Positions 13,498 to 34,005 of a stretch of 41,070 bases of DNA are shown here, piece after piece. The translations under genes and the position numbers were made by a program. A model generated the notes under the pieces. That model had not been told where the DNA came from, searched no databases, and saw only the letters and a program-made list of their open reading frames with translations. Where the stretch lies: positions 1 to 41,070 of the forward strand of contig JANXBS010000027.1 in assembly GCA_025060615.1 (NCBI GenBank). Reading direction: 5' to 3'. How positions within the stretch are numbered: the stretch's first letter is position 1; every line of letters starts with the position of its first letter. This DNA is from Anaerolineae bacterium (GTDB lineage Bacteria; Chloroflexota; Anaerolineae; DUEN01).

Positions 13498-14040
13498 TCA
13501 AGCGCATGTAGAGGCTTTTGCCTGCCGCAGCGCGCGGACCAACGCTGCATAACGAGCGCCGCGCCCCACGATCTCGATCTCGCGCTCCGATGGACCGGCC
13601 CAAGCCAAGGTCACATCCAACCGCTCGGCCGGCAACAGTCCCCGCTTACCAGGCGTTGAGGCCAAGCGATCGGCCCATTCGATCACACAAACCCCGTCAT
13701 TGGATAACAGCTCTTCCAGCCCGATCTCCCACGCTTCAACGGGAGCATCAGTCAGGCGGTAACAGTCCACATGATAGAGCGGCGGTGTAGAGCGGTATTC
13801 GTTGATCAGAATAAAAGTCGGGCTGGTGACCGGTTGGGTGATCCCCAGCCCGCGCGCCAGGCCCTGTACCAACGTGGTCTTCCCCGCGCCCAGATCGCCG
13901 AAGAGGGCGATGACATCCCCTGCCTGCACCCATACCGCCAGCGCAGTCCCCAGCGCGGCCGTCTCCTCGGGCGCGCGACTATGGCAGACCCACCGTTCCT
14001 CTTCAGGCGGAGAAGCTTGACCAGATGCAGAGATGCTCAC
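13498..14040 (-). CDS. tsaE: tRNA threonylcarbamoyladenosine synthesis ATPase TsaE
   Basis: 180 residues. P-loop ATPase that recycles the TsaBD complex. Walker A is GDLGAGKTT (residues 48-56), followed by [14 protein letters not shown] and the LYHVDCYRL and CVIEWADR segments of the family. The GTG start at 14040 has no Shine-Dalgarno site, and a TATAAT box ends only 7 bases upstream, so the mRNA is probably leaderless. First gene of tsaE-tsaB-rimI. The C-terminus is somewhat longer than usual. Confidence 0.92.
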
Positions 14041-14494: not shown

Positions 14495-17400
14495 CTAAGG
14501 CTTGCTCAACAGCGGGAGATATAGGCTGTATTTCTGGCCATAGTGCGCCGAGGCGACGACATAGGGCGACTCTGCCGAGGCGGCAACGGCCTTGACCCGG
14601 TATTGATAGATGCCATCCACCAGGTTGAAGGCATCCGTGTAGCCGGTGGCGTTGGCAGGCAGGGCCGCGATCACCTCGAAGCTGGCGACGCCCGGCGCGC
14701 GCCGCTCCACTACATACGCGCTCTCATTGGTTGCGTTGTCCTGCCAGGCGAGCTGCACGCTGCCCTGCTGCACACGAACGCGAAGCTGTGTAGGCGCCGG
14801 CAATGTGGCAGGCAGGGTCGCGGCGCTCACCGGGCCGGCCAGACCGGAGTCGCCCGTTGCGTTCCGGGCGCGCACTTTGTAGAAGTAGGTCGTGCCTGGA
14901 GCCAGGTCCCGATCCGTGAAGAGGGTCGCACCGGCGCCCACGGAACCGACCACGGCATAGGTCCCATCTGCCCTGTCGCTGCGCAGGACCTCGAAGCCCA
15001 AGAGCTGGCTGGCGTCGCCCGCGTAGCTCCATCGCACCTCGACGGACTCGGACGACCGTGGTGCAGCCTGGAGATTGCTGGGCGCGCCAGGCAGCGGCGG
15101 CAGGGCTTCCACCGGCTCCGAGAAGGCATAGTCAGAGGAGAACACCGCGTCGCCTGTCTGAGCGGCCTCGACGCTTGCGCCCGCCTCGGCGGCCATGGCG
15201 CCCTCACCCTCGGTAACCACGATGCTCATGTCCGCCTCGATCGTCGTGACGCCCTCGCCCAACTCGGCAGCTATGATACCCTCGCCTGGCTCGGCAGCCA
15301 TAGCGGCGGCGCCGCTGAGGCCGTCAGCCTCGCTGCCCAGCGCCTGCACCCGGAAGACGAAGGGCTGGCCGGCCGGCAGTTGGGTCGCGGTGAACGACGT
15401 GGCGTTGGCCGGGGCGTTGCCGATCCAGGCGCACACGCCACCAGCGCAGCGTTCGATCCGGAACCCGGTTTCGCCGACGCTGTTGTCGCGCCAGCGGATG
15501 ATCACTTGGCCGATGCCGGCCTCAGCCACCACCTCGCTGGGAAGGCTCAGCCAGCCAGCCTGGCCTACCGCCACGAGCCTGCCATCGCCGGTGGTGACGT
15601 ACACCGTGCGGTTGGCGCCGATCACCGGCGCGCTGCGGGCGTCCACCGGCGCGCCCAGGTCCACTCGCCACCGCACCTCGCCGGTGGCGACGCTGAGCGC
15701 ATACAGGTGCGTCCCCGCCGCAACATACAACAGGCTGTGATCCACGGCTGGCGTCGCCAAGATAGACGTGCCGAGGTCTTGCCGCCAGCGCAGGGTGCCG
15801 TCCGGTGCCAGGGCGACCACCCGGCCGTTGCGGTTGACGGCGTAGATTGTGCCGTTCAAACCGATGGCCGGGGTGGCCGTCACCTCTGCGCCGGTGTCAT
15901 ACGCCCAGCGCTGTGTACCGTTGAGCGAGAGGCTGACGACCGCGTTGCCGCGCCCGACGTAGACGTGGTCATCCGGCCCGACGGCCGGCGCCGTGGTCGG
16001 GCCAGAGGCAGGCGCCAACTCCCGCTGGATCACCCCGCCGTAGCGATCCACCAGATAGAGCCGCACCGCGCCGTTGTCGTTGGTCCACACCCCGCCGCCC
16101 CCACGGGTGAGCGCCACGGGTCCCCTGGGCGAGCCGAAGGAGTTGATGAGGGTCAGCGAGCCCGGCGTGTAGCGCATGATGCCGAACCGGGTGGGCAGCC
16201 AGACCACGCCATCCGGGCCGATGCGCGGCGCGCCGGTGAACTCATTGCCGAGCGTCAACGTCCGCGTGTCGCGGGGGTTCAGATCGCGATCGAACACGCG
16301 GAGGGTGTTGCCCGCGACGACGTAGACGCCCTCGGTAGCCAACGCCGGCTGGTGGTCCGGCGCGACGGCCAGAGGCCGGCTATCGAGCAGCGTCCCGTCG
16401 GGGCGAAATCGTAAGATCTGACTGCTGCCGGCGACGACGATCAGGCCATAGCGGTTTACCACCGGCGCCGTGCGCGGTGTGCCAGTAGTCGTCGTCCAGA
16501 GCCGTAGGCCGGCGGACGGGCCGTTGGCCGTCGTGGCGCTAGAGGCGAACCAGTCGCGGCCGGCCTGGGGCCAGAAGGCGCGCATGTCGGCCGGGTTGCC
16601 CCAGTAGCTGAAGGCGGGATCGCCGAAGAGCTGCATGGTCGCCAAGCGCCAGTCGCCGGGGTTCACGCGGATGATGGCCTCCATCCCCTTCCACAGCGCA
16701 TCGCCCAGCCGCAATGGAGCCTCCACGATGTCCCGGTTGAACCAGTCCTGCAGCGGATCCAGCGCGCTGACCGGGACGATGTTCAGCCCCCCGACCCAGG
16801 CGGCAACTCGGCCGTTGGCCAGCAGCCGGCTGGCGACCGTCTCGCGGCCCTGGCGCCAGTCGCCCCGTCCCCCTGGCGGAATGATCCAGACGTCGCCGGT
16901 GGAACAGGCGTTGGCGAAGACCACCGGGACGATGCCGAGCCGCTCAGGCATGAATGCATGGATAAAGGACCGTGGGGGGGTGAGCTCATAGCATGGCTCA
17001 TCTCCGCAGCGGCCCTCCCTTGGGCGCACCGGGTTCTCGATCTGACGGTTGTCGTTCCAGTCCTCGGTCCAGTGCTGGGCATAGACGCCGTCGCCGTCGC
17101 CGTGGCCCTCGACATTGACCAACCCGAACGGTCGGTCTCGCCATTGCTGATCCATATTGGCCCCGCTCAAGGCCGCATCGGCCGGCTGCCGGCTGGGGCT
17201 CAGCGCAGGATCGCCCCCCGGCGCGGTGGTCTGATACAGGGCCGTGATGTTCATCTCCGGCTGAAGGATCGGCCGGAGGGTGACGTTCAAGTGCTCGGCG
17301 GAGTCAAGGCCAAAGGGCTTCACGCCATCCCACGGGAAATATAAAGCCCCATCCGCCCCGTACATGGTGCCATCCACCGTCACCGAGCGGCCGCCGTCAA

Positions 17401-19708
17401 TGTAGCGGTTCGCTCCCTGGCTCCACGAGCGGCCGTCGAAGCCCCAGAACGCAGCGGCCAACAGGGCGTTGCGCTTGTCCGGCGAGCCACTGGCCTCCGT
17501 GGCGGCCATGGCGCGCAGCGCTCGGCGCACCTCCGCAGGCGTGTTGAGCGGCAGCCGGCCCAGGGCGATCTCCGCCTTCCAGTCGTCCTCGGGGCCGGCC
17601 GAGCTACCAAAAGGCCCCTCGCGGAGAGGCGAGCCCGGCGGAGGACATTCAAGTAGAGGGCCTCCGGGCCTCTCTGGGGGCACCTCGCGCTCCCCGGGCG
17701 CGCAGAAGAGGTACTCGCCGTAGAAGCCATTGTTGTTAGTGTCCCAGTTGGAGTCCAGGTCAGCGTAGTACCAATCGGTCACCAGCGCCGGGACGTAGTT
17801 CGGTCCTGGAGTGCGGTAAGCCCTAGGTCCTTCCCAGCCGACCTCGCGCACCGGGATCTTGTCCCCGCGGCCGACCAGCAGCGCGTACACCGGGTTCGGG
17901 CGATAGGCCTGCCAGCGGCTGCGCAGCCAGTTGCGCACCTTCTCGGCCAGGTCACGGCCGGAGACGGTCAGGTTGATGGTCTCGGTGCTGATGGTCTCCA
18001 CCTGATACCCCTGAAGCTGCTTCATGTCCACCAGCGGCCACAGGTCCATATCGCGCACCGGCGGGCTATACACGATCAGGTAGTGGCGGTTGAAGGCCGG
18101 CACCATGCCGGGATCGAGGGCATCTACAAATCGGCCGCCTAAGTAGGACCTGCCCGATGCAGCGCCGGGGTAGACCAGCAGGTTGGCGCTGAGCGCCGTG
18201 CCGTCGGGGCCGGCGTCCGCCGAGACCGAGGTGACCCCGCGCGGATCAATCTCCTGAACATAGAACAGGGAAGGGCTGTAGCCTCGGTAGAGTAGGGTGT
18301 AGTCGCCGCTGCCGCCCGTTCGCGCCGTGTCCAACAACGAGCCAGAGCCGATCAGGTGCACGGTGACATTGGCGATCCCATTCCCGCGAGTGTCGGTCAC
18401 CCGCCCCGAGAAGGAGAAAGACGGTACAGGGCCGACCAGATTGCTGAACCTCACGGTGGCCCAGCTCGCCGGTCGGTTTTCCACAGCGCCGACCGGCCAG
18501 GGGTTGTTGGCGACGAGCCCGCCGCCCAGCTCGACCGCTTCCATGCCGACCGTGGCGCTCCAATCCTCGGGCAGGCCCAGCAGTGTGCGGCTCAAGCGGA
18601 ACTCCGCGTGCCAGAAAAACTCGTCGTAGGAGGCCGCCACGCTCCACGAGCCGGCTGGCGGAGAGAGCGGCCGAAAGCCACCGGCTCCGTCCCCCTCTTC
18701 CGCGCGGATGGCGCCGTCAACCGTGATGACGAAGCGATAGTCCCCCGGCTGCGCCCGCTCGTGGCGGCTCCCATCGCGGTCTATGGCCACAGCCGCCGAG
18801 CGCCCTGCAGCCCGCTCCAGGCCGGCAAAACAAACGTAGAGGTCGGTAGCCGTGTGCTGGATGTAGACCGTCGTGTAACTTCTCTCGCGCAGCCCTACCC
18901 GCTCGGCCGCGCCGTACTCGGCGGCCTGGCAGCGCCCATCTACGGTTACGCTGCTGGTCGTCCGCGGCACCGTCAGGTCCTGGGGCAGCACGCCGTTGGT
19001 GTCGAAGCGCGGATTGCCGCGGAGCAGACTGGAATACCTCCCTTCCGCTTCCCGATGATGGCCGTTGAGGCGCCAGACGCCTCGCAGCCCGCCTCGAGAC
19101 CAGACCTCGCGATACATGTCGGCCCGGATCTCCTCCTGCGTGCGCACGACATCCCAGATGCGCACCTCGTCCAGCATACCGTAGAAGTAGTAGAAAAAGC
19201 CGGTCTGGTAGCCGCTTCTCGGATCGGCTCCGATGCCGAGCGGCGCATCGTTGGATGTCAGCGGCCCGCTGCCGGCGGTGGAGTCTAGGTCGAGCTCGCC
19301 GTTGACGTAGTACCGACGCCGGGTGCCATCATACGTGACCGCGATGTGGGTCCAGACATTGGCGGGGATCTGTCTATTGCCGTCAACGGCCGAGCCGATG
19401 CCGCGAGGGTAGAAGCGGATCCGGCCGGTGCAGAACCCCAGCCAGTAGCCGGTCCTCCAGTCCTTGCCCACCACGGTCTCGCAGCGGTCGTCGCGGAAGC
19501 GATAGACCCACGCCTCGATGGTGATGGCGGTGCGAGGATGGGGTCCGTTTTCCACCTCCACGAAGTCGCCATCGCCGTCGAACTTGAGCGTGCGCAGGGT
19601 TGGCCCGAACTCGTCGGCGTGCGCCGGCGGCGCCGGCGGCACCAAGGAGGCCAGGACCAGCGGCATGCATATTAACCATCGTATCAGAATGCTGATCTTG
19701 CAGTTCAT
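14495..19708 (-). CDS. Secreted multidomain protein with gingipain-like C25 peptidase domain and beta-propeller
   Basis: 1737 residues. Signal peptide 1-31 (ends PAPPAHA). Then: LamG-like jelly roll (about 40-235, ITIEAWVY, HIAVTYDG, GMLDEVRIWD), CBM9/DOMON-like domain (about 245-430), carboxypeptidase-regulatory-like beta domain (about 435-500), a C25 cysteine peptidase-like domain (about 540-1070) with VNVEGHGDGDG (His869) and VFANACSTGD (Cys935), a PQQ-type beta-propeller (about 1085-1460), FN3 repeats to the end, and the tail LYLPLLSKP. An Ala/Glu/Gly-rich stretch (about 1537-1595) splits the FN3 region. ATG 19708 has GGGGAGGT upstream. C25 peptidases cut after Arg or Lys; substrate here unknown. 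The final tail is likely a surface retention or sorting signal (inference). Confidence 0.85.
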   Translation of the reverse strand: MNCKISILIRWLICMPLVLASLVPPAPPAHADEFGPTLRTLKFDGDGDFVEVENGPHPRTAITIEAWVYRFRDDRCETVVGKDWRTGYWLGFCTGRIRFYPRGIGSAVDGNRQIPANVWTHIAVTYDGTRRRYYVNGELDLDSTAGSGPLTSNDAPLGIGADPRSGYQTGFFYYFYGMLDEVRIWDVVRTQEEIRADMYREVWSRGGLRGVWRLNGHHREAEGRYSSLLRGNPRFDTNGVLPQDLTVPRTTSSVTVDGRCQAAEYGAAERVGLRERSYTTVYIQHTATDLYVCFAGLERAAGRSAAVAIDRDGSRHERAQPGDYRFVITVDGAIRAEEGDGAGGFRPLSPPAGSWSVAASYDEFFWHAEFRLSRTLLGLPEDWSATVGMEAVELGGGLVANNPWPVGAVENRPASWATVRFSNLVGPVPSFSFSGRVTDTRGNGIANVTVHLIGSGSLLDTARTGGSGDYTLLYRGYSPSLFYVQEIDPRGVTSVSADAGPDGTALSANLLVYPGAASGRSYLGGRFVDALDPGMVPAFNRHYLIVYSPPVRDMDLWPLVDMKQLQGYQVETISTETINLTVSGRDLAEKVRNWLRSRWQAYRPNPVYALLVGRGDKIPVREVGWEGPRAYRTPGPNYVPALVTDWYYADLDSNWDTNNNGFYGEYLFCAPGEREVPPERPGGPLLECPPPGSPLREGPFGSSAGPEDDWKAEIALGRLPLNTPAEVRRALRAMAATEASGSPDKRNALLAAAFWGFDGRSWSQGANRYIDGGRSVTVDGTMYGADGALYFPWDGVKPFGLDSAEHLNVTLRPILQPEMNITALYQTTAPGGDPALSPSRQPADAALSGANMDQQWRDRPFGLVNVEGHGDGDGVYAQHWTEDWNDNRQIENPVRPREGRCGDEPCYELTPPRSFIHAFMPERLGIVPVVFANACSTGDVWIIPPGGRGDWRQGRETVASRLLANGRVAAWVGGLNIVPVSALDPLQDWFNRDIVEAPLRLGDALWKGMEAIIRVNPGDWRLATMQLFGDPAFSYWGNPADMRAFWPQAGRDWFASSATTANGPSAGLRLWTTTTGTPRTAPVVNRYGLIVVAGSSQILRFRPDGTLLDSRPLAVAPDHQPALATEGVYVVAGNTLRVFDRDLNPRDTRTLTLGNEFTGAPRIGPDGVVWLPTRFGIMRYTPGSLTLINSFGSPRGPVALTRGGGGVWTNDNGAVRLYLVDRYGGVIQRELAPASGPTTAPAVGPDDHVYVGRGNAVVSLSLNGTQRWAYDTGAEVTATPAIGLNGTIYAVNRNGRVVALAPDGTLRWRQDLGTSILATPAVDHSLLYVAAGTHLYALSVATGEVRWRVDLGAPVDARSAPVIGANRTVYVTTGDGRLVAVGQAGWLSLPSEVVAEAGIGQVIIRWRDNSVGETGFRIERCAGGVCAWIGNAPANATSFTATQLPAGQPFVFRVQALGSEADGLSGAAAMAAEPGEGIIAAELGEGVTTIEADMSIVVTEGEGAMAAEAGASVEAAQTGDAVFSSDYAFSEPVEALPPLPGAPSNLQAAPRSSESVEVRWSYAGDASQLLGFEVLRSDRADGTYAVVGSVGAGATLFTDRDLAPGTTYFYKVRARNATGDSGLAGPVSAATLPATLPAPTQLRVRVQQGSVQLAWQDNATNESAYVVERRAPGVASFEVIAALPANATGYTDAFNLVDGIYQYRVKAVAASAESPYVVASAHYGQKYSLYLPLLSKP

Positions 19709-21331: not shown

Positions 21332-24300
21332 TCAGCCGGCCTGCAACTGCCGATTAAAGGGCAGGTTGAGAAAGGCACGGCGGGCTTCTTCGTGGGGAAT
21401 AGCTGCTGCGCGGGACTCGAGCATAGCGCGCGCCTCCATCAGCAGTGCGTCGGCTTGAGCAGTTTCACCTAGCGCGCGCAGGGTTTTTGCGGCTGCCCAT
21501 AACACCGCTTGCGGATGCAGAATGCCTGCTGGCGCAGCGCGGTAGAGGGTCAGCATCTCTTCCATCGCTAGGCGCGCTGCTTCTAGATCGTTCAGGCGCA
21601 AGTACGTCTCCACCAGGTCCACCAGATCGTGGCATAGGTCGGACGTTTGGCCCAGCTCACGGCGTAAGGACAGGCCGGCCTGAAGATGTTCCAGCGCTTG
21701 CCTCTCATGGCCCAATTCGCGTTCCGCAGCCCCTAGCGCGATCAGCGCGGCCGCTTGCAATGGACGGCTGCCGATGGCCTGCGCGCGTTCCAAGCCGCGC
21801 TGGGCTTGCAGGCGAGCGGCCGCATAGTCAGCCTGATAGTGGGCGATCACAGCGCGATTGATAGCGCAAACCGCTTCCCCGCGCTGATCCTGTATCTGGG
21901 CGAAAAGGCGCTCCGCCCTCTCCAATGTCTGCCAGGCTTGCGGATAGCGGCCCAAATTTATATGAAAGACGGCTAAGTTGACCAGAGTCGCCGCCCGGCC
22001 TTGTGGCCGTCCTAGCGCTTCATAAAGCCGAGCGGCCTGGCTGAAGGCGAGCTCAGCGGCGGAGACATCGAACAGACGGACATGGGTGGTCGCTAATTGG
22101 AGCAGAGTCTCGGCCTCGCCGACGCGGTCCCCCAGGGATTGGGCGAGTTCCAATGCCTGCTGGTTTAATTGCCGTGCTCTGGCGAACTCCTGGTGAGCGA
22201 AGGCGATGCGAGCGGCTGTCTCAAGGGTGCGGAAGACGACAAAACGGTTGGACTGTCGCTCTGCCAGCGACATCGCCTGGGTGAGCAGATCGTGGGCTGT
22301 GCGAAAATCCCCCTGGTGTAAGGCAACCTCGGCCAGAAGGCAGAGGCAGGTGATCTGAGCGGCCTCATCGTTCTGAGCGCGATAAAGGGCGAGCGCCTGT
22401 TGCAGCCTCCGTTGGGCCTGATCATAGCGGCCAGTCAGCATGGCATGCACGGCTTCCTCTCGAAAGAATTCCCCCTCCTGGCGAGGATGGCCAGCCGCTC
22501 GGGCACCCAAGGCCTGCAGCGCTTCAGCCTCTTGTTCGCGCTCTCCGCGGGCGCGGTGCAGCAGAACCCGCCTTCGGAGATAGAGACATTCTCGCTCTGG
22601 ATCCTGAAGCAGGGTCACCAGTTGTCCCATCTCATGTAGATCGGCCTGCTGAGCTGCAAGTGCATCGGTGTGGGCCAAGATCTGCTCGCGGAGGGCCAGT
22701 AGATCAAAGCGCAGCGCAGGGTCAGAAGCCCAGGCGAGGCCACGATCCAGCCAACGTCGAGCCTCTGCGCTGGCGTAGAGCGAGAGGGCGTAACGGGCAG
22801 CTCGCAGATACCAGTGGGCTGCTTTTTGCCCCTCTTCCGCTCCCTCCCAATGGCCGGCGATGAGCGCGGCAAGTTCCTCCTGGCGTGTCGGGTACAGCTC
22901 GGCCAACGCCCGTGCCGCGCGACGATGATACCGTCGACGTTCTGTAGCGCGCAGAGTGGAATAGACCGCCTCGCGTAAGAGGTGGTGGCTGAAGGTATAG
23001 GCGAATGGGCTGCCCACTTCTCGCAACATGCGTCGGCTGAGCAGGATCTCGATGTGATCCAATACGCTGCCCTCGCTCCATCCAGTCATCTCGCTAAGCA
23101 GTTCCACATCAAAGCTCAGGCCACATACGGCAGCCACCTTAACCAAGGTGAGCGTTTCCGGGTCGAGGCGCTGCAACCGTTCGGCGAGCAGCTTGCGAAT
23201 GGCTTCTGGCAGAGGGGCCATTGGCGGAGGCAATAGCTCTTCTCGCCTGCTGGCCCTCTCGAGCAGGTCCTGCAGGACCTCGATGGCAAAAAAGGGGTTG
23301 CCCTCACTATACTCGTAGAGATAGGCGCCGAGATCTCCCTCCGACAGGAGATGGGCATACTCTTCTACCATCGCCTGCATGGCCGAAAGCGAGAGAGGGG
23401 CGAGATCCAAGTGCAACATGTGCCCCGCGGCTTGTAGGCGACGCTTCACCTCACGCAGCGGATGCGTGGGACTGATTTCCTCGCTGCGATAGACGCACAG
23501 CAAGAGGAGGCGATGGGAAAAGGCGCGTCGGCTGATAAACTCCACCAGCGCCCAGGTGGCAGCGCCAGCCAGGTGTAGATCCTCGAGGATCAGCAACAAT
23601 GGACGGGGACGAGCTAGTTCCGTCAGGAGCGTGGCCAACGCATCGAACAAGCGCATCTGCTCACGCTCGAGATCCAGGCGTTCCAGTGGGAGGGGAGAAG
23701 TGACGGGGTCAGAGGAAGATGGCGACCATTCTGGCAGAACAGAGGTGATGACGGAGGCTCGCAGTGGATCAAGGTTGAGATTTTGCCACAAGGGCAACGC
23801 CGAGCGCAACGCATTGAGCAGCGCTTGGTAGGGCAGCGGTTCGTCAGCTGTCATCTCTCCTTTGAGCACGCGCCCGCCATGGGCTTCCACCCATGAGGCG
23901 AATTCTGCGACCAGCCGGCTCTTCCCAATGCCGGCCAAACCGCTCAACAGCACTAGCCCCCCTTCGCCGCGTCTGGCTTGCTGCCAGCGAGCCTGCAAGG
24001 TCTCCATCTCCTGCCGACGGCCGACAAAGGGTAGGCACAACGTCTGCGCCTTAGCCGCCTTTTCGACGGAAGAGGGTACGGGCATCAAGGCGGCCGGCAA
24101 CGTTTCCTCGCGCAGGATGAGCTGATGCAACGCTTGCGTTTCAGGCATCGGCTCGGCTTGGAGTTCCTGTCGCAGGCGGCGGGCAAACGTCTCGTAATCC
24201 TGCAGCGCGCCGGCGCGGTCTCCAGCCTCGTAACGTAACATCATCAGGCGACGTAGGGCGTTCTCTTGAAAAGGCTCGTAGGTCAACAGCCGCCGTGCAC

Positions 24301-24811
24301 AGGCAATAGCCCGCGGATAATCGCGGCGCTGATAGTGATCCAAGATCAAGCGCTCTAAAGCGGTCAAAAATTGCTCGCGCAGCCGCTCCCGCACTGGATG
24401 TAGCCATTCTTCATCCTCGAAGCCTTCCAACAGATCGCCACGATAGTAAGCCACCGCCTCCGCCCACTCCTCCCGCTCTATAGCGCGCTCGAATTCGGCC
24501 ACGTCCAGCCAAAAAGAAGCTTCGGGGTTCCATTGGAGATGGCGGCGTGTGATCATCAGCCAGGGGAGAGGGGGATCGGCTGAGGGGAGCGCGCGCGTCA
24601 GGTCATGCAGGTGGCGACGCAAGTTCGCCAGTGCCTCCTCCTCTGAGAACTCTGGCCATAGAGTAAAGGCGATCTTGTTCCGGGGCAGAGGCATATGCCG
24701 ATATAACAGCAGGTAAGCAAATAAGGGAAGCGTCTTCGAGCGTCCTGAAAATCGTAGGTTTGTATCATTCCAAACCAATTGGGGAGAACCGAAGAGAAAA
24801 ATCTTTAGCAT
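21332..24811 (-). CDS. BTAD/AAA ATPase/TPR transcriptional regulator (SARP-LAL type)
   Basis: 1159 residues. N-terminal winged helix (about 1-95, FGSPQLVWNDTNLRFSGRSK and HLHDLTRAL), bacterial transcriptional activation domain (about 96-240, FERAIEREEWAEAVAYYRGD), STAND-like AAA domain with Walker A GLAGIGKSR (about 290-298) and Walker B LLLILEDLHL (about 405), then tetratricopeptide repeats to the C-terminus. Such proteins sense a ligand or partner through the repeats and switch on transcription in an ATP-dependent way. No Shine-Dalgarno site is seen before ATG 24811. It lies 260 bases below the tubulin-like module on the same strand and could regulate it or be unrelated. Confidence 0.9.
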   Translation of the reverse strand: MLKIFLFGSPQLVWNDTNLRFSGRSKTLPLFAYLLLYRHMPLPRNKIAFTLWPEFSEEEALANLRRHLHDLTRALPSADPPLPWLMITRRHLQWNPEASFWLDVAEFERAIEREEWAEAVAYYRGDLLEGFEDEEWLHPVRERLREQFLTALERLILDHYQRRDYPRAIACARRLLTYEPFQENALRRLMMLRYEAGDRAGALQDYETFARRLRQELQAEPMPETQALHQLILREETLPAALMPVPSSVEKAAKAQTLCLPFVGRRQEMETLQARWQQARRGEGGLVLLSGLAGIGKSRLVAEFASWVEAHGGRVLKGEMTADEPLPYQALLNALRSALPLWQNLNLDPLRASVITSVLPEWSPSSSDPVTSPLPLERLDLEREQMRLFDALATLLTELARPRPLLLILEDLHLAGAATWALVEFISRRAFSHRLLLLCVYRSEEISPTHPLREVKRRLQAAGHMLHLDLAPLSLSAMQAMVEEYAHLLSEGDLGAYLYEYSEGNPFFAIEVLQDLLERASRREELLPPPMAPLPEAIRKLLAERLQRLDPETLTLVKVAAVCGLSFDVELLSEMTGWSEGSVLDHIEILLSRRMLREVGSPFAYTFSHHLLREAVYSTLRATERRRYHRRAARALAELYPTRQEELAALIAGHWEGAEEGQKAAHWYLRAARYALSLYASAEARRWLDRGLAWASDPALRFDLLALREQILAHTDALAAQQADLHEMGQLVTLLQDPERECLYLRRRVLLHRARGEREQEAEALQALGARAAGHPRQEGEFFREEAVHAMLTGRYDQAQRRLQQALALYRAQNDEAAQITCLCLLAEVALHQGDFRTAHDLLTQAMSLAERQSNRFVVFRTLETAARIAFAHQEFARARQLNQQALELAQSLGDRVGEAETLLQLATTHVRLFDVSAAELAFSQAARLYEALGRPQGRAATLVNLAVFHINLGRYPQAWQTLERAERLFAQIQDQRGEAVCAINRAVIAHYQADYAAARLQAQRGLERAQAIGSRPLQAAALIALGAAERELGHERQALEHLQAGLSLRRELGQTSDLCHDLVDLVETYLRLNDLEAARLAMEEMLTLYRAAPAGILHPQAVLWAAAKTLRALGETAQADALLMEARAMLESRAAAIPHEEARRAFLNLPFNRQLQAG

Positions 24812-25073: not shown

Positions 25074-28022
25074 TCAGGGGGAATGCTCAGGGTTTGACAT
25101 TGCAAGATCCGCCGAAGAGTTAGATTGGTACGCTTCCATGGCAATTGCAACGTTAGCTGCCTCCGACGGCAGTCCGCCGAGCAGCGCGGGGCTGACGATC
25201 AACCGGCTGCGCTCCTCGGCATTCAAGCCCGCAAAGGTGATCGCATAGCTTTGTAACTGCGGCAAGCTCTCCACGAGCAAGCCATGTAATGTGCGCACGA
25301 CGATGATCGAGAAGGGATCAGATGAAGGGATAGGATGGACGCGCCGTGCCGCGTTCGTTTCACGGCCCACCCATTGGCTCATGGTATGCGGAACAGCCGC
25401 CAGGTCAATGCTGACCAGCGTGCCCAATTCGGCTTCTAGCTCTTCAAAGCCGATGAAGGGGCGAGCACGCAAGCACAGGTCGTCCAGTTGCCAGCCGACA
25501 TCGGCCGACCGCGCCCCCGGCACCTCTCGTCGAGCCAGGCGCATCAGCGATGCTTCCACGCTGACACCCGGGGGCAGATACGGCTGAGACACCATCGCCG
25601 CGTAGCGGGCTATCGCTCCGGAGATCGCCTCAGCCAGCGGCGTGCGTGGGGTAACCTGGCCAGTCCAGCTCAACGCAGGGCGATGCCTTAGCTCATCCAG
25701 CGTAGGTTCGGTCAGGACCCCTTGGATCGTCTCCCGCCATGCATTTTCCAGTTCATCAGGTGGACTGTTGCTGTTGGCCCACAAACGGGGAGAGACTTCT
25801 TCACTGATCCAACGCCGCGCCCTCGCCCAGATGCCGTCGTAGATGGCGGTATCCAAAATGGGAATGCGCACGTAAGAGGCATCCGCAGTAAGGGGGCGGG
25901 TTAACCAGGTGGCGAGCTGCCCGCGTTCGGCCTCTAGTTCGGCTAGCGCACGTTGCAGATAGGTGATGCGCTCCCGGACCTTCTCATATAAGACAGTGTG
26001 CGCGTTGACGGTCAGATCGTACAACAAATCGTTAAGTTGACGATGGATGACAGCCGCCTTGGCCTGGATCAGCCGATGAGCCAGTTGATCGAGCTGTTTC
26101 CTCGCCAATGCCAGCGCGCCGACGCCGGCAACCGCTCCTATCGCAATGGCCTCGATCACCAGGCGCACAAGCCCGGCCGCCTGTAATTCCCCCGGGCCGG
26201 TGCCGATGGCGCGAGTGATAGCCGTCATGACGATCAAGCTGAAGATGAGTAGGCCTAAGAATACCCATTCAGGATGATGATGCAGCCAGCTCCATCGTTC
26301 GATCGCATGGAGGACGCGGTTGACCTGTTCTGACCCAGTGCGATGGCGCAACATGGGAGGGATGGCCATCTGACTTCGCTGGGCGGATAGCCCGGCGCCA
26401 TCCTGTTGAACTAGCTCAGCCACTTTCTGCACGCAGTGAAGCGCCATTCGCAGGCTGCCCCGGCGCCCTTCGCGGATTAATTGGAGCAGGAAGTCGTCCA
26501 TCCGTTCGAGCAGATAGTTGACAGCCGTCTGTCCCGGCCGCAACGACCTGGGGGAACCCTCTGGCGAGGCCTCCGCAGGCTCCCCCCCCCTTTCCTCCTC
26601 CACATCTGACGCCGGCATCATCCCGGCGCGGATCAGCAGATCCTGACGCCAGCGGGGTAGATGAGTTCCCTCTAGCAGAGCGAAGTGATGCTGGATGGCC
26701 TCCACCCGTGCCAGAGGCCCCAACCCCTCAGTCCCGCTGAGGGGCGGTTGTAGCTCTCCCGGACGCAGGCGGATCGGCTGGAACGGCCCGGCAGGGACGT
26801 CGCTGGCTCGCGCCTGAGATGCCTCCGGGTCCAGCTCGATGGGTGTATCACCGATCAACGCCTGTTCCAGTCTTACCACTGAAAGAAATCCCCCGGCTAA
26901 AGTGTGCGCCAGCTCTTCGACCCGGCGAGCTTGTTCGGGGGTCAGAGGAGCCAGAAACTGGTCACGAAGCAGATGGAGTCGAATCTGATCGCGGCTGCGC
27001 GCTCGCATCATCTCGACTGGGACATATACAGAAGCCGCGCCCAGGCTGCTATAGCTACGTTTTTCGTGTAGCACGGACAAATCGGGAGCCAACCGCTCAC
27101 TAAGAAACCGATCAGCATCGGATAGTAAAAATGCCTCCAGCGCGTTGGCTACCATGGCGATGAGCTCACCCTCGCTTTGAGCCATGGTTCCACCCACTTT
27201 CTCTCGGCTGAACAGATAGCGAAGGTCCATAGGGTGGGTACCTAGGGATTCCAGCCAACGGCTGCTGGGCAGCTCTGCGCGAATGCGTTCGTGTCGCGCC
27301 GGATCGGACGACTCCAGGGCGCTCATTTCTTGCAAAACCAGATGGATGCCGGCCAATTCGTAGGGACGGGCAGTCGGCGCAGCGAACGAATCGGCCTGGA
27401 ATAGCCCAATCACCTCGATGGGGGTATAGTTGCCAACAGCCTGACGGATCAACGCGGCAAGCGGCCAAATCAAGACGGACGTCACATCCTCGGCCAGCGA
27501 GGCTAGGAAGTAAACAGTGAGCCTGGCGATCTCCGATGTGGGCTCATCCCGGTCCACCCGCGCCTGATCCATAATCCACATCAACTGTTGCGTGATGCTC
27601 GACTCGTGAGCGGCCAGCGTGTGGACGATGGCCTTGCGGCCAAAGTAGGCGATGTCCGGCGGCGGAGTGCACGTCTGCAGGACCTCGATAGCCTCTTGCA
27701 GGCGCCGATAGGTTTCCTTTCGCCAGGCTTCGCTGTCGCGTCGCCCCTCGACGGCCTTGTCGGACAGAGCATGCCAGGGGAACTCGGCAAAGGCAGGGGT
27801 ATCCCAATGTCCTACGCGGGGCCGGGCAACGGTGATCTGCCCCGCGTCATCCGGCATCACTAGGGCAAAGCTGGCCACGTAGTGAATGGGCGTCAGGTTA
27901 GGCGCCACCAGTGAGCGGCGCTCGTCGGCCAGGCGCAGACGCGGCCACAAATGGGCCAGCGCGCGACATCCCCACCCTCCTAGGCCAATCAGCGCCGCCC
28001 GGCTATTTCGAGTCGCCCCCAT
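25074..28022 (-). CDS. Degenerate tubulin-like membrane protein (pseudo-GTPase paralogue)
   Basis: 982 residues. The N-terminus has a tubulin-type first loop, GLGGWG (13-18). The later segment TVYFLASLAEDVTSVLIW (about 169-186) aligns with YIYIVTSLCGGTGSGVFLD of the upstream tubulin-like protein. The GGTGSG loop has become AEDVTS, so nucleotide binding is probably lost. Flanking matches (GRKAIVHTLAAHESSITQQL against GRLSFFRRYRTFWNQLEPKL, and IEVIGLFQADSF against IITGILGMPSLF) support common descent. Two membrane helices lie at about 586-606 and 619-642, followed by a soluble C-terminal half with coiled coil (YLQRALAELEAERGQL). ATG 28022 is preferred over 28028 because GGAG lies 7 bases upstream. 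Third gene of the module, 104 bases after the second. No characterised function known to me. Confidence 0.75.
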   Translation of the reverse strand: MGATRNSRAALIGLGGWGCRALAHLWPRLRLADERRSLVAPNLTPIHYVASFALVMPDDAGQITVARPRVGHWDTPAFAEFPWHALSDKAVEGRRDSEAWRKETYRRLQEAIEVLQTCTPPPDIAYFGRKAIVHTLAAHESSITQQLMWIMDQARVDRDEPTSEIARLTVYFLASLAEDVTSVLIWPLAALIRQAVGNYTPIEVIGLFQADSFAAPTARPYELAGIHLVLQEMSALESSDPARHERIRAELPSSRWLESLGTHPMDLRYLFSREKVGGTMAQSEGELIAMVANALEAFLLSDADRFLSERLAPDLSVLHEKRSYSSLGAASVYVPVEMMRARSRDQIRLHLLRDQFLAPLTPEQARRVEELAHTLAGGFLSVVRLEQALIGDTPIELDPEASQARASDVPAGPFQPIRLRPGELQPPLSGTEGLGPLARVEAIQHHFALLEGTHLPRWRQDLLIRAGMMPASDVEEERGGEPAEASPEGSPRSLRPGQTAVNYLLERMDDFLLQLIREGRRGSLRMALHCVQKVAELVQQDGAGLSAQRSQMAIPPMLRHRTGSEQVNRVLHAIERWSWLHHHPEWVFLGLLIFSLIVMTAITRAIGTGPGELQAAGLVRLVIEAIAIGAVAGVGALALARKQLDQLAHRLIQAKAAVIHRQLNDLLYDLTVNAHTVLYEKVRERITYLQRALAELEAERGQLATWLTRPLTADASYVRIPILDTAIYDGIWARARRWISEEVSPRLWANSNSPPDELENAWRETIQGVLTEPTLDELRHRPALSWTGQVTPRTPLAEAISGAIARYAAMVSQPYLPPGVSVEASLMRLARREVPGARSADVGWQLDDLCLRARPFIGFEELEAELGTLVSIDLAAVPHTMSQWVGRETNAARRVHPIPSSDPFSIIVVRTLHGLLVESLPQLQSYAITFAGLNAEERSRLIVSPALLGGLPSEAANVAIAMEAYQSNSSADLAMSNPEHSP

Positions 28023-28126
28023 GGTCATGCTCCGCTATCCAGAATCAGGGGAACAAAGCCGATAGGGCAACTCGTGGCCATCATCACACGCTGCCGCATC
28101 AACTCGCTACCCATTATCTCAATGCC

Positions 28127-30649
28127 TTAAATCGCTTGATTCGCCAGAATCACCTCAGGCAGTCTCTGCCAATCTGCCTGCAGGTGAACGGGGCTGCGCT
28201 CGAGGAACTCTCGGTAATGGCGATATAGGGTCTCGATGTTCTCGATGTACATGACAGGCAGCCCGTGGCTGATCTTGCACGCCTCGATGCGAAGCGGATC
28301 ACCCGTAGCTACGCGCTCGTACTCGCTGTAATCGCGCAGGAGGTCGTCATACAGCTTCAGATGACGAATGGGATCGTCCACGCCCACCAGGATCGTCTGC
28401 TCCAGGTCTTGCTCGTCCAGCCCGCCCCGGTCCAGATCATAACGCCAGAAGGGATGACAGCGAGCGAAAAGCTGTTTAACCCGCTCCTGAAGCATGGCGC
28501 GGTTGGTGGCAAGGATGCGAGCAAAGTGGAACTCCTCCGGCTGGATGGAGACATCTACCACCTCGCGCCGGCTGTGATGCAGGAGCCGATCGCGGATATC
28601 AAACCAAGTGATTGGTTGGTCCTCATGCTCGCCCAAGTGTGCGCGTAGCTTCAGCAACTTTATGTAAGTCGTCTCGCCGAAGGCGCGCTGTTCACTGGTC
28701 TCCATCTCCACCCAAAAGATCAACGGGTCCTGGACCAGCTGGCTCAGTGACTGCTCCAAGCGATGGCTTAAGACGCGTTCCCAATTACGCCGCTCAAAGT
28801 CGTTGACGATGTAACGCTCATCCACAGCCTCGCTGGTGAGCGCATAGGCGTTCTCCCAGGTGGTGCGAGCGCCCAATCGGAAGAACAAGCCTAGCGGCTC
28901 GACGATCCCCTTCTCGCGGGCCGCCTCCATATCCCCGATACGGTTCTCAACGTCCCAGCGCAGGCGCTCGGTAACGGGAATCAACCGGCTCCATAGCTCG
29001 TGCAACGTCTGCACGCGCTGGCGGGCGCGGCTCAAGCGCGCCATTTGCTCGCTCAGGATAGCTCGCTCGCGGCGGGTGGCACGCTTCAGATTGTCCACGA
29101 ACAACATGTCAAAGGGCCAGAAGCTGAGCAGGTTGACGATAAAGGGATCGCGCACCCGCGCCAGATTAACCTCCAGCGTCTCGATCCGGTCGGTCAGGTT
29201 CTCCACATCTTCGTGAGCCTGATCACGTTGGGTTACCAGCGCTTGGTGTAGCGTGTCTATAAAGTAATGAGCGCCACGTAAGCCATAGCGTTGGGCTACC
29301 TGATGGATTTCATCGCGCAGGTCTAAGAGCAACTGTTCGTACGCGGCCTCACTCCATCGGCCTACTGCTGTTTCGCCTTCCGGTTCCCATTCCGCCTCTT
29401 CGAGCTCTTCCTCTTCTTCCTCTTCCCCGAACTCCTCCTCGGAGGGTGCCGGTGTTGTCACCGGTTGTCTGCGTCCCATCACGGCGTCTTGTACGAATGT
29501 GATCACCGATTGTGCCTCGGCAGCTAGCTCGTTTTTGTCTTCGGGCGTCAGCTCACGCAGTAGCCCCAGGTTGAGCAAGCGCTCGGCATACTTAAGCGCG
29601 CAGTACTCCAGCATGCGCTCCTTGGGCACCACCAGCGCTGAGGTGGCAAACGAGCTGTAAGCCAACATGCTCATCCCGCTGCGGTGTCGCTCTTGGGAGA
29701 TGTTGACATCGTAGGACCAGATGCGGGACCCGATGTGCGAGACCGTCTCCAGAAAGATCTGGTGGGCCATCATCTGCTTGACGTCGTCGAGCGTGTCCAG
29801 GGTTTCACCAGCGATGTTGCGCCGCTCAATCAGATAGATGCGATCGAACGGACGGCTGACGGTGATCGGATCCTCACCTGGGTACTGCACGACGAAGTCG
29901 TAGCCGCTTTGGAAGGCGTCCAGCTCCTTCAAGGCTGCATAAGCGTTGGCCTGGATGCGTCGTTTTTGCAGATCGCTATCCAGCTCTTCTAGGAACAGCG
30001 AGGGCATGCCCAGGATACCAGTGATGATGGCATGCTCGCCAAAGAGGTGACGGAGCTTGTGAGCCACGTCTAGAAAGACGCCGCTGCCGGTGCCGCCGCA
30101 GAGCGAGGTGACGATGTAAATGTAGCGAATGCCGCCCTCTCGGATGACGGGATAGCCGCGGTTTTCGGTCTCTTCGATGGTGGCGACGGCGGCCATACGG
30201 CTCAACTTGGGCTCGAGTTGGTTCCAGAAGGTGCGATAGCGGCGGAAAAAGGAGAGCCGGCCCACGCAGCGGATCTGGCGGGCGCCGCTGTGGATCTGGC
30301 CCAGCGGGACTAGCTCTGGTGGCCAGTTCCACCATGCCTTGATGGTAGGGTGATTGTCCAGATGGCGTAGGACCTGGCTGGCGTTGTAGCCACCGATATA
30401 GGCATATTCATGCCGATGCAGGTACTCCTGGCCAGGCAGGTTGGCCCAAGGCATGGTATCCACCCCCAGAAGCTGGATGATGCCCGGGATCTCCTCCGCC
30501 GGCCCTAATCCCCACGCCTCACGCAGCCGGCGTTTGAAGAAGCGCAGCACATCCACACCCGTGCCCCCTAACCCGATCACTAAGGTGGGACGGAGAGTGG
30601 GCTTGGCGGATAAATCCCCATTCGATGAAACGCGTATTGGCCCTACCAT
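28127..30649 (-). CDS. Tubulin-like GTPase (Tubulin_2-type family)
   Basis: 840 residues. The tubulin/FtsZ fold is shown by GLGGTG (26-31) and the signature loop SLCGGTGSG (182-190), which binds GTP phosphates in tubulin and FtsZ. The GTPase part covers about 1-400, longer than FtsZ. It is followed by a highly acidic linker (a run of Glu near 405-430), then coiled coils (QRDQAHEDVENLTDRIETLE and RERAILSEQMARLSRARQRV) around a hydrophobic stretch FIVNLLSFWPFDMLFV that could touch the membrane. It is not FtsZ: there is no FtsZ C-terminal peptide and the size is double. ATG 30649 has GAGGGAG 6 bases upstream and lies 18 bases after the von Willebrand gene stop, so translation is coupled. Polymerisation is inferred. 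Confidence 0.82.
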   Translation of the reverse strand: MVGPIRVSSNGDLSAKPTLRPTLVIGLGGTGVDVLRFFKRRLREAWGLGPAEEIPGIIQLLGVDTMPWANLPGQEYLHRHEYAYIGGYNASQVLRHLDNHPTIKAWWNWPPELVPLGQIHSGARQIRCVGRLSFFRRYRTFWNQLEPKLSRMAAVATIEETENRGYPVIREGGIRYIYIVTSLCGGTGSGVFLDVAHKLRHLFGEHAIITGILGMPSLFLEELDSDLQKRRIQANAYAALKELDAFQSGYDFVVQYPGEDPITVSRPFDRIYLIERRNIAGETLDTLDDVKQMMAHQIFLETVSHIGSRIWSYDVNISQERHRSGMSMLAYSSFATSALVVPKERMLEYCALKYAERLLNLGLLRELTPEDKNELAAEAQSVITFVQDAVMGRRQPVTTPAPSEEEFGEEEEEEELEEAEWEPEGETAVGRWSEAAYEQLLLDLRDEIHQVAQRYGLRGAHYFIDTLHQALVTQRDQAHEDVENLTDRIETLEVNLARVRDPFIVNLLSFWPFDMLFVDNLKRATRRERAILSEQMARLSRARQRVQTLHELWSRLIPVTERLRWDVENRIGDMEAAREKGIVEPLGLFFRLGARTTWENAYALTSEAVDERYIVNDFERRNWERVLSHRLEQSLSQLVQDPLIFWVEMETSEQRAFGETTYIKLLKLRAHLGEHEDQPITWFDIRDRLLHHSRREVVDVSIQPEEFHFARILATNRAMLQERVKQLFARCHPFWRYDLDRGGLDEQDLEQTILVGVDDPIRHLKLYDDLLRDYSEYERVATGDPLRIEACKISHGLPVMYIENIETLYRHYREFLERSPVHLQADWQRLPEVILANQAI

Positions 30650-30667
30650 CAAACACTCCCTCGTCGT

Positions 30668-33600
30668 TTATCCTTCACCCAAGTAACGGAAATAGTACTT
30701 GTCTCCGCTTTCCGCCAGGCGGATGCGGAAGCGAGTGCCTGGGATGAGCACGTGCCCGCCCTCTCCCACCGCATGCCAGCGGTTGGTCTCTGGCCGCCAG
30801 TAGGCCACACGTGTCGGTGCAGGAGCTGTCGGGTTCGCCCGCAGAACCGGCCGCCAAGTGGCCCGCGTAGCCCGCCCGATCACCCGTTGCTCCAGCTCGA
30901 GGATCGCCAGCGCCCGCGCCCGATCCGCCGGCTTAGTGCTGAAACCGACGCCGGCGCGTCCCATCACCAGGTAAAGCGCGCGATGGCGTGGCACGGTAGC
31001 CATCTCGCCCGAGGCGTCAGCCATGACCACGCCACCCTCGCGAGGGGCCGCCGGCCGCAGCTTGAGGCCGGTGTTGATTAGAACCAGCAGCACCAGCCAG
31101 CCTACAAACCCGCTGAGCCGGATCGGCGGCAAAGGCCAGAACCAAGTGCGCAGGAAGGTGCCAATGGGCGATAGACGGCGCGCCCAAGCCTGAGCGGGCG
31201 TGAGCTGGCGCACTGTGAAGCTGATCCTAGAAGGCCGGATGCTCACATCATCGCTGGCACGCAACACGATGGTGCCCTGGTACAGCCCAGGGGGCACCTT
31301 GCCTTCACTGCTGATAAGCAACGGCATCCGATAGCCGTCGCCGCTGGGCTGAATCACGCCAGTGCGGACTGTCAGTGCGCTGGCGGCCCGCACATCCCCG
31401 CCGGAGTGGCGCACATCGGCCAGCGCGGCGTCCACTCGCGGCGGGCTATCTTTGAAGGTCAGTTGCATCTGAATGGGCAGATTGGCCGGTTGAGTGAGAT
31501 CAACCACCTCGCCGAAATCCAGCACATCGCCGCTGAGGGCCAAAATCAACTCCGGTTGGGGCACGTTGAACACCACCTGCACTCGGCGCGGCTCGATGGA
31601 TAGGCCAGACGGCGAGGTGAAGACGATTTCGCCGCGGTACACGCCGGCCGGCGGCCGGGCGATGGCGGAGAGCCGCACCGGGAGCACATAAGTACGTCGG
31701 TCATCGCCGCGCGGGACGGCCTGTCCCACCAGCACACTGAAGCCGCTGGCATCCACAGCCTGGTTGCCCCGTGTCAGATTCGTGAGCGTACCCTCGATCT
31801 CTGAGGCCACGCCCTCGGTGAACTCCGCGGTGATCTGAAACTCCCGCGGCTCGCGCGGCTGGCGGATCTCGCCCAAGTCAACAGAATTGGGCATGCTCAG
31901 CCGCACCTCAGGCTCCGGGATGGTGAACCGAAGCGGCACCGTGGCCGGTTGTACATCCAGATCCTTGCCGGCGTTGAAGGTGATCGCGCCTGTGTAGCGG
32001 CCAGGAGCCAACTGGTCGAAGCCGCTGAGGGTTAGCAAGGATTTATATCTGTTGCCGCCCTGGTGAGTGGGACGGGCCAAGCTAATGGTCAGGCCAGACG
32101 GACGCACGCCGGGCGTATCAGACTGGATTTCGACGGTGGCCTTGAGCTGGAACGGTTGCTCGGTGTAAGCCGACAGCATTAACTCACGTTCGATGGAATC
32201 CTGGTAGAGGGGCACATTGCCCAGGTCGAGGATATCCGGCAAAGACTCCAGCCGCAGCGCATCGCGCATCGTCAGGCCGCCTTCAGCGAAGTCATTGTAG
32301 ACTACGCCGTCCGCAGTGGTCGCAGTTGCCAAGAAGAGCACGGCGTAGCGCCGCCCCTGTACCGGTGAGAAGCTCTGGTCCTCACAAACGCCAGCCACAC
32401 AGGTCAGGGAGATGCGAATGACCTCGCCGGTGTTCTGATCCTGCAAGATCGCCTCCACCTGAGCCTCCTTCGGGGGCTGTGGGCCCTCGAAGTGGACACG
32501 CAAATGCAACTGACCACCCTCTACCAACCCGTCCGATCGCTCGGTGGGGCTATCGGCGATGAGGGGCGGGAACTCCCCTGCTTCTAAAATGAACTCCTTC
32601 TGCAATCGCAAGGGGGTCACCTGGCTGCCGATCTGAATCTGCACCCGCGTCTGCTGGCCGGGCTGCATCCCCGGCTGGGACGGCACGATCGCCCAATAGA
32701 GGGTGCCATCCTGGGTGAGGCGCTCTGTGGTCATAGGGTATTGCACGCCCTCAACGCGAGCCAGAAGTTGCAGTCCGGAGGCCAGGGCGCCCGCGCGTCG
32801 CACCGTTGCCCCTAGGAAGACCGGCTTGCCGATGGGGTAATAGCGAGGCGTGGCCGTGGAATCGGCGCCGGGCATCGGTCGCGGGTAGGCCAGGTCAATG
32901 GTGGTGACCGACTCAGCAATGACCAGACCACTGCCGCCAGTCGCCTGCAGCGCGCGGGCCACCCACTCGCCGCTCAACGGGCTATTGTGGGCGATGGTGA
33001 TCATCTCGTAGTGATTTTCCACGATCCGACGGATCGTAGCCCCACCGCTCAGCTTGTCCAATCCGAGGATGGAGACGCCATCGAGGGTGAGGTCAGCGAA
33101 AGCGGCGGCTGTCTCACGCGTCTTGGGCAGAACTAGGCTTAGCGAGGTAACCCCTTGCTCCTCGCTCGTCTTCACCATGCCCACTTGCCCGCCGATCAAA
33201 TCCACGATGTCTACGTATCGGTTAGGCTGGATGTAGGAATAGATGGTGGCGTAGGCGCGCAACAAGCCGGAGGGGCTGTCCACCTGCTGGACCACACTTC
33301 GGGTATCCGCCACCATGCGCTCCGCCACCTGAGGGTCGGTGTCCTGGCCCAACAGGATGGGGAAGATAGGGACGCCCTCCTCGCCCAGCTCAGAGATCAC
33401 CTGAAATAGCTCTGATCGCTGCTCGGGTGGATAAGGACGGCCATCGGTCAGGAAGACGATGAACTGGCGGTTTGCCCCGCGGTTGCGGCGGAGGAGATCC
33501 TGGGCCATGCGCAGCCCCAGCCGGATGTCAGTCAGCCGTTCCATGGGATCGGCCGGCTCAGTGGGCTGCACGATAGCCGCCTTGAGCCGGTCGCGGGACG

Positions 33601-33922
33601 CCTGGTCAGAGATGATGTCGAAGCCGCCGTTGGCCGCCGCGCCATAGCCGGTGGGATAAGTGTGAAACGAGATCACAGCGATGCGGTCATTCGGCCGCGC
33701 CAGGTCTATAAACAGGCGAGCAGCGCTGTGGCGCAGCCCGTCCGGGTCGTTGGGCTGTCGGGTGCCGCCGGCCCATAGATCGCTCATACTGCCAGAGTCG
33801 TCGATGAGTAGGACGACATCCAAGGAGTCAGACGTGCTGGCCTGGGCAACCACAGGAACGCTCCACAGCCACAGCATGACTGTTAGAAAGATCACCCAAA
33901 TGCATCGGCGCACAGGTGCCAT
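30668..33922 (-). CDS. Exported von Willebrand A protein with C-terminal membrane anchor and cytoplasmic tail
   Basis: 1084 residues from ATG 33922 (GAGGT 9 bases upstream; the longer frame from TTG 33964 is rejected). Signal peptide about 1-27 (WVIFLTVMLWLWSVPVVAQA). The von Willebrand A domain follows at once with an intact metal site: DDSGS (41-45) and FLTDGRP. Then a long series of beta-sandwich repeats, each with a D-[LF]-G-[EN]-V-type strand (ILDLGNVP, VDLGEI, LDFGEV), about 90-110 residues apart. One membrane helix near 932-952 (GFVGWLVLLVLINTG) and a 132-residue cytoplasmic tail with VIGRATRATWRP and HVLIPGTRFRI, faintly FHA-like. First gene of the tubulin-like module. Probably a surface or periplasmic binding head that signals inward. 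Confidence 0.85.
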   Translation of the reverse strand: MAPVRRCIWVIFLTVMLWLWSVPVVAQASTSDSLDVVLLIDDSGSMSDLWAGGTRQPNDPDGLRHSAARLFIDLARPNDRIAVISFHTYPTGYGAAANGGFDIISDQASRDRLKAAIVQPTEPADPMERLTDIRLGLRMAQDLLRRNRGANRQFIVFLTDGRPYPPEQRSELFQVISELGEEGVPIFPILLGQDTDPQVAERMVADTRSVVQQVDSPSGLLRAYATIYSYIQPNRYVDIVDLIGGQVGMVKTSEEQGVTSLSLVLPKTRETAAAFADLTLDGVSILGLDKLSGGATIRRIVENHYEMITIAHNSPLSGEWVARALQATGGSGLVIAESVTTIDLAYPRPMPGADSTATPRYYPIGKPVFLGATVRRAGALASGLQLLARVEGVQYPMTTERLTQDGTLYWAIVPSQPGMQPGQQTRVQIQIGSQVTPLRLQKEFILEAGEFPPLIADSPTERSDGLVEGGQLHLRVHFEGPQPPKEAQVEAILQDQNTGEVIRISLTCVAGVCEDQSFSPVQGRRYAVLFLATATTADGVVYNDFAEGGLTMRDALRLESLPDILDLGNVPLYQDSIERELMLSAYTEQPFQLKATVEIQSDTPGVRPSGLTISLARPTHQGGNRYKSLLTLSGFDQLAPGRYTGAITFNAGKDLDVQPATVPLRFTIPEPEVRLSMPNSVDLGEIRQPREPREFQITAEFTEGVASEIEGTLTNLTRGNQAVDASGFSVLVGQAVPRGDDRRTYVLPVRLSAIARPPAGVYRGEIVFTSPSGLSIEPRRVQVVFNVPQPELILALSGDVLDFGEVVDLTQPANLPIQMQLTFKDSPPRVDAALADVRHSGGDVRAASALTVRTGVIQPSGDGYRMPLLISSEGKVPPGLYQGTIVLRASDDVSIRPSRISFTVRQLTPAQAWARRLSPIGTFLRTWFWPLPPIRLSGFVGWLVLLVLINTGLKLRPAAPREGGVVMADASGEMATVPRHRALYLVMGRAGVGFSTKPADRARALAILELEQRVIGRATRATWRPVLRANPTAPAPTRVAYWRPETNRWHAVGEGGHVLIPGTRFRIRLAESGDKYYFRYLGEG

Positions 33923-34005
33923 ACTATTTGTACCTCGGCGAGCGCTTCCCATTGCGCTGGTCAAACCACGCGAGATCGAAAAGGTCGAGGGGATGACTTT
34001 ACAGA

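Follow-up and report, generated by a model that had tools for sequence, protein, structure and literature searches.

Operons that pair a vWA gene with a gene for the FtsZ-like protein FtsZl1 were described by Makarova & Koonin 2010 (PMC2875224), who proposed a role in membrane remodelling, and a reviewer of that paper questioned how a cytoplasmic FtsZ-like protein works with periplasmic vWA proteins. Neighbourhoods of a vWA gene and two tubulin-like genes were placed among predicted conflict systems by Kaur et al. 2020 (PMC7159879, cited here and below for the available portion of its text), and we found no publication with functional tests of FtsZl1 proteins. We focus here on a trio of this kind in an Anaerolineae bacterium of the Chloroflexota (assembly GCA_025060615.1, contig JANXBS010000027.1, positions 1-41,070, the 41,070 nucleotides that we call the window), where three genes read in one direction on the minus strand, from 33922 to 25074, encode a vWA protein, then FtsZl1, then a degenerate FtsZl1 paralogue, pseudo-FtsZl1. 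The original prediction, made from the DNA letters, knew of no described function for such a trio; that claim has to be withdrawn, as the two papers provide a predicted function for the vWA/FtsZl1 operon and for the vWA/two-tubulin neighbourhood, respectively, and the window trio is a well-supported member of the known FtsZl1/vWA kind, not an undescribed system. On the other hand, the main text of PMC2875224 contains neither a fixed partner in the form of a hairpin-bearing paralogue with a dead T4 loop nor vWA fusions to one. A membrane-bound, nucleotide-dead sibling is thus absent from the main texts, and it is uncertain whether the third gene had been reported before, as our comparison covers main texts and some lineage-specific genes of PMC2875224 (A1-A2, B1-B9) appear in its supplements only. 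We put the probability at about 0.5 that the trio works across the membrane as a device gated by the vWA protein, with pseudo-FtsZl1 as the anchor or seed of a GTP-dependent FtsZl1 assembly.

The third open reading frame (ORF; 25074-28028, minus strand) encodes the 984-residue pseudo-FtsZl1, whose Pfam match to Tubulin_2 (8.7e-6, 25.7 bits) falls just below the cut-off of 27 bits. Despite this weak score, profile comparisons firmly point to a full-length FtsZl1 paralogue: a hidden Markov model (HMM) search gives E 4e-20, the N-domain of the third-gene family aligns with FtsZl1 in hhalign at E 1.1e-32 over 344 columns, and the C-domain is matched by HMM at E 6.8e-5. T1 reads GLGGWG, and in the sequence alignment the T4 equivalent is LAEDVTSV (27474..27497), a destroyed GTP-binding loop. 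Hydropathy and the helix pattern of an AlphaFold2 (AF2) model place a two-helix membrane hairpin at about residues 590-608 and 615-633 (26130..26261); its short loop holds no basic residue and its flanks are basic on both sides, so both ends of the protein are predicted to be cytoplasmic. Sequence and HMM comparison also show a C-terminal motif, SSDPFSIIVVRTLHGL (25278..25325), kept in common with FtsZl1, where it reads TGDPLRIEACKISHGLP (28256..28306). As a family-wide trait this motif was rejected, its strict pattern being found in just 14 of the 81 active copies counted below.

FtsZl1 itself, the product of the middle gene (ORF 28127-30652, minus strand, with a TTG start; 28127..30649 and 840 residues from the alternative ATG at 30649), has no transmembrane segment and combines a Tubulin_2 GTPase-like domain (29573..30583, 218.5 bits) with a coiled coil and a C-terminal domain. 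The Pfam match to PF13809 (Tubulin_2; 1.7e-63, 215 bits) covers positions 1-355 of 356, that to PF00091 (Tubulin) stands at 3e-4, and both loops are intact, T1 as GLGGTG (residues 26-31, 30557..30574) and T4 as CGGTGSG (residues 184-190, 30080..30100). Helices 434-500 and 515-579 have fair confidence in the AF2 model, and the helical C-domain has low confidence. The protein thus shows the traits of the FtsZl1/Tubulin_2 family as known from the operons of PMC2875224 (PF13809), namely an FtsZ-like N-domain with T1 and T4, a coiled coil and a helical C-domain, together with an adjacent vWA gene that has an intact metal-ion-dependent adhesion site (MIDAS), a signal peptide and a transmembrane segment. 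As in the species listed there, Chloroflexus among them, FtsZl1 coexists with a normal FtsZ: the genome has a separate canonical FtsZ (184.8 bits), and the FtsZ_C domain, which Pfam does not find in FtsZl1, is present in 40 of 41 genomes sampled in Anaerolineae. The original prediction was therefore correct that this protein is neither FtsZ nor TubZ; the division FtsZ of the genome is another gene. Aligned by hhalign, the FtsZl1 family and Chloroflexota FtsZ (E 9e-6) have in common the GTP-binding N-domain that is also found in alpha/beta tubulin, and the alignment ends at H5, a limit likewise given in PMC2875224. The unequal subunits of the window are reminiscent of eukaryotic alpha/beta tubulin; compared with FtsZ and tubulin, however, the pair has no FtsZ_C or Tubulin_C domain, and one of its subunits is pocket-dead and in the membrane.

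The first gene (ORF 30668-33964, minus strand, TTG start; alternative ATG at 33922) encodes, from the ATG, a vWA protein of 1084 residues (30668..33922) with a signal peptide, a vWA domain, a beta-rich ectodomain, one transmembrane helix and a cytoplasmic tail. The vWA domain (PF00092/PF13519, 33290..33820) is matched in Pfam by VWA at 1.4e-7 and VWA_2 at 5.5e-8, and its MIDAS motif DDSGS (residues 41-45, 33788..33802) is completed by Thr131 and Asp160. From hydropathy, the transmembrane helix lies at about residues 931-949 (31076..31132). The single helix and the cytoplasmic tail agree with the original prediction, which gave the tail 132 residues; it measures 134 (30671..31072) and is conserved within its clade. 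In other clades the tail position is taken by an FHA domain or a DPWxSxW end. FHA domains form the tail in the clade of loci L068, L070, L072 and L186 (L068 1.5e-7, L072 1.3e-6), whose operon also has a Ser/Thr kinase and FHA proteins, and a DPWxSxW-like linear motif is conserved at the tail ends of one family, in L078, L079, L083, L092, L093, L155, L160, L164 and L171, where it is possibly a docking peptide. An FHA identity for the window's own tail is unsupported (hhalign against FHA-bearing tails, E 0.16). The rest of the anatomy originally claimed, an exported vWA protein with its metal site, a tubulin-like protein with intact loops and a loop-dead paralogue with two membrane helices, is borne out by ORFs, Pfam and hydropathy, as are the gaps of 18 and about 100 bases: 18 nucleotides separate the vWA stop from the FtsZl1 ATG, and 98 nucleotides separate FtsZl1 from the third gene.

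To place the window among its relatives, we draw on a census of Chloroflexota and plasmid records with 93 loci including the window, taken from genomes with a Tubulin_2 match and biased to strong matches; the counted set consists of the 81 loci in which FtsZl1 is strong and a T4-like motif is present. Of 201 genomes sampled over the whole phylum, 25 have Tubulin_2, as do 91 of 396 in the class; PF13809 is also present in Corynebacterium glutamicum, a laboratory species open to genetics. The complete trio, in the same order and on one strand, recurs in 44 loci from 16 family-level groups, so that the conserved adjacency on which the original prediction had staked itself is found. A vWA gene lies immediately upstream of FtsZl1 in 68 of 77 readable loci, and the D-x-S/T-x-S/T of its MIDAS is intact in 66 of the 68, the other two being cut by contig ends. 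An FtsZl1 paralogue is detectable immediately downstream in 48 of 76 loci, a count that is an underestimate, since third genes of another subtype that have no transmembrane segment are related over their length to the membrane ones (hhalign E 3.2e-24, with L142 left out). GGTG is kept at T4 by 72 of the 81 active copies (the remainder have GGQG, GGQN, GGTN or GGTC) and by 0 of the 48 downstream paralogues, and transmembrane segments, rare in the active copy, are present in 42 of the 48, which together points to a strict division of labour. One apparent GGTG, in the pseudo copy of L089, was discounted, as it belongs to T1, not T4. Within the window's family, dS is near saturation and purifying selection acts on all three genes: the ratio of non-synonymous to synonymous substitution (dN/dS) is 0.04-0.10 in FtsZl1, 0.11-0.14 in the vWA gene and 0.12-0.17 in the faster-evolving yet constrained paralogue. 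This selection and an order repeated in 44 loci argue that the trio is not a chance arrangement.

A physical path from outside to inside is suggested by variants of the third gene. In L088, L090 and L091 it is one chain in which Pfam finds vWA, a PD40 propeller region and Tubulin_2, with an additional CAP domain in L090 and L091. These giant fusions of 1800-2360 residues (L088:4268-9763, L090:9757-16158, L091:11215-18297) run from a signal peptide through vWA, a transmembrane pair, the propeller and a further transmembrane segment to Tubulin_2, an order that places vWA outside the cell and the tubulin domain in the cytoplasm. The same build appears in L089, L151, L169 and L170, as judged by length and transmembrane pattern only. 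Furthermore, in L101 and L182, which belong to one family and have no paralogue, the active FtsZl1 itself carries a transmembrane hairpin near residue 600, the matching place. The fusions, this hairpin and the FHA tails are evidence, though no proof, of a physical path from the outer vWA head to the tubulin-like pair; the coupling through the membrane that was originally proposed gains independent support from the chains that join an extracellular vWA to a cytoplasmic pseudo-tubulin, and that interpretation as a whole is partly supported.

On these grounds the trio may work as follows. The vWA protein would be a type I membrane protein whose outer, metal-dependent head binds a ligand and whose tail faces the two tubulin-like proteins. 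FtsZl1 would be the nucleotide-binding subunit; pseudo-FtsZl1, in which the nucleotide pocket appears to have been lost and the membrane hairpin gained while the C-terminal domain was kept, would serve as a permanent membrane-bound interface on which FtsZl1 in its GTP form assembles. Ligand binding outside would change how the pair is clustered or what state it is in, and in this way GTP-dependent assembly below the membrane would be started, held or capped. The domains, topology signals, paralogy, conserved order and one-sided loss of T4 that enter this proposal are evident from sequence analysis. That the three proteins associate physically is suggested by the fusions and the conserved order, GTP binding and assembly by FtsZl1 are expected from T1/T4 and from the behaviour of the superfamily, and signalling would presumably run from outside to inside. 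We also count in favour of the proposal the canonical FtsZ elsewhere in the genome and the FHA tails of vWA proteins in loci with Ser/Thr kinase and FHA genes. That the pair is an obligate unequal tubulin-like polymer, made of a soluble nucleotide-binding subunit and a nucleotide-dead membrane subunit and switched from outside via the vWA receptor, which would make it a transmembrane-signalled prokaryotic cytoskeletal device, we consider doubtful.

Several observations weigh against the proposed device. For about a third of the downstream genes FtsZl1 homology is undetectable, and the membrane hairpin is missing from one group of third genes. Paralogue distances follow the distances found for the active copy and for the vWA protein (r = 0.87-0.91; for the active-pseudo correlation, 0 of 500 shuffles), and in the tree paralogue clades mirror active-copy clades, but the correlation largely reflects shared descent, and order and co-divergence are no proof of contact. 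The tree also requires three or more switches between the active and the pseudo form, with long-branch warnings, so that a single ancient pair is not established and the pseudo form may have arisen once or several times. No structure backs assembly of FtsZl1 and pseudo-FtsZl1: AF2 models of the two from a five-sequence input were poor (pLDDT, the per-residue confidence score, 42 and 55), Foldseek hits to these models were helical and dynamin-like noise, none with an E below 0.001, and the FtsZl1 profile found no solved relative among PDB sequences, coiled-coil noise alone. As neither model is usable, the predicted tubulin fold of the pair draws on sequence profiles only. The T7 loop of FtsZ and tubulin serves polymer-coupled hydrolysis, and no equivalent is identifiable in FtsZl1 by profile alignment to FtsZ, that alignment ending at H5. 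This absence, a long C-terminal coiled coil with helical domains unlike FtsZ or tubulin, and the strict pairing of one active with one inactive copy would suit a switch that does not polymerise, with FtsZl1 as a dimeric regulator dependent on GTP, pseudo-FtsZl1 as its membrane receptor and no filament; every characterised protein of the tubulin superfamily makes filaments (PMC2875224), and we regard such a switch as rather unlikely. That the third gene is a functionless, decaying copy is highly improbable: its T4 is destroyed and it evolves faster than the active copy, but dN/dS is low between members of the family, the open frames are full-length throughout, the C-terminal motif and hairpin are retained and the gene is present in many families, all of which speaks for constraint.

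The two published proposals have to be set against the device as well. Remodelling of the membrane or envelope without a defence role, with FtsZl1 filaments that shape or bud the membrane under guidance of vWA from outside, is the suggestion of Makarova & Koonin 2010; it suits three proteins at or near the membrane and a chromosomal locus whose neighbours are kept in the window's family. It is, however, a general prediction from gene context, which the localisation makes hard to interpret, as the reviewer in PMC2875224 noted, and no OmpA or other envelope gene adjoins the window copy, so we hold it to be on the unlikely side. A conflict or defence module, that is, a nucleoside triphosphate-dependent sensor-and-assembly system against invaders or non-kin of which the window trio is the core, its effector lost or elsewhere, is a tentative possibility. 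PMC7159879 proposes such a role for GAP1-N2 tubulin neighbourhoods, and its Firmicutes versions resemble the window in having two tubulin-coiled-coil genes and an extracellular vWA. The same portion of text names Chloroflexi among GAP1-N2 hosts, describes the tubulin theme for Firmicutes and Actinobacteria only and, unlike what we find for the T4-dead paralogue, makes no mention of inactivity of one tubulin; a Pfam scan of the genes next to the trio finds no GAP1 or TRAFAC GTPase, the genome elsewhere not having been searched. Altae-Tran et al. 2023 (PMC10910872) report vWA systems with tubulin-domain proteins near CRISPR, which fits a subtype of our census (L082, L148). Against a defence role in the window itself, PADLOC has no match for any of the three proteins, no effector or nuclease adjoins the trio, and its housekeeping neighbours, TyrS and an S49 peptidase, are retained in L064 and L066, which makes the trio a chromosomal resident in the window's family, not a mobile cassette.

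For part of the FtsZl1 family, the evidence leans towards defence. In several Anaerolineae, operons continue from vWA, FtsZl1 and the third gene to a GTPase, a reverse transcriptase (RT) and Cas1, identified in representatives (L148, L081, L082, L086, L087, L153, L158 and L184; the P-loop GTPase of L081 is of DUF697 type), and the operon of L148 (2147-12072) lies between two CRISPR arrays with an identical repeat (1-317 and 13621-13952). Such a link between a tubulin-like/vWA module and spacer acquisition by RT-Cas1 merits separate study. Three Thermaceae plasmids carry a conserved set of vWA, FtsZl1, a protein of about 680 residues and BrxL (L104:6306-14383, L188:6404-14363, L189:6375-15467); FtsZl1 homology is not detectable in their third gene, their hosts are Meiothermus, Thermus and Allomeiothermus, and their flanks differ (HmaC/DUF499 in Meiothermus). 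We regard this set as a candidate defence cassette; a recent BREX survey (PMC12839542) nowhere mentions tubulin or FtsZ. The window trio has none of these RT-Cas1, CRISPR or BrxL partners and, unlike the systems of PMC10910872, no CRISPR or cas gene alongside. It also differs from the operons of PMC2875224 in that a Pfam scan of its neighbours found no P-loop GTPase, kinase or OmpA gene; these partners were originally described as frequent and not as strictly required, and kinase/FHA and GTPase partners are present in other subtypes of our census. The trio has housekeeping genes around it; a 1159-residue regulator with BTAD, AAA_16 and TPR repeats lies directly downstream (21332-24811, minus strand), and further on there is a 1737-residue protein with an N-terminal hydrophobic segment, Laminin_G_3, a C25 (gingipain-type) peptidase, a beta-propeller and fn3 (14495-19708, minus strand).

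If the proposed device is real, it would add a case in which assembly of a tubulin-family protein is anchored and nucleated by its inactive tubulin sibling. The fixed, membrane-anchored pseudo-FtsZl1, together with the vWA fusions, offers a concrete and testable answer to the puzzle raised by the reviewer of PMC2875224, of how periplasmic vWA and cytoplasmic FtsZ-like proteins may cooperate.

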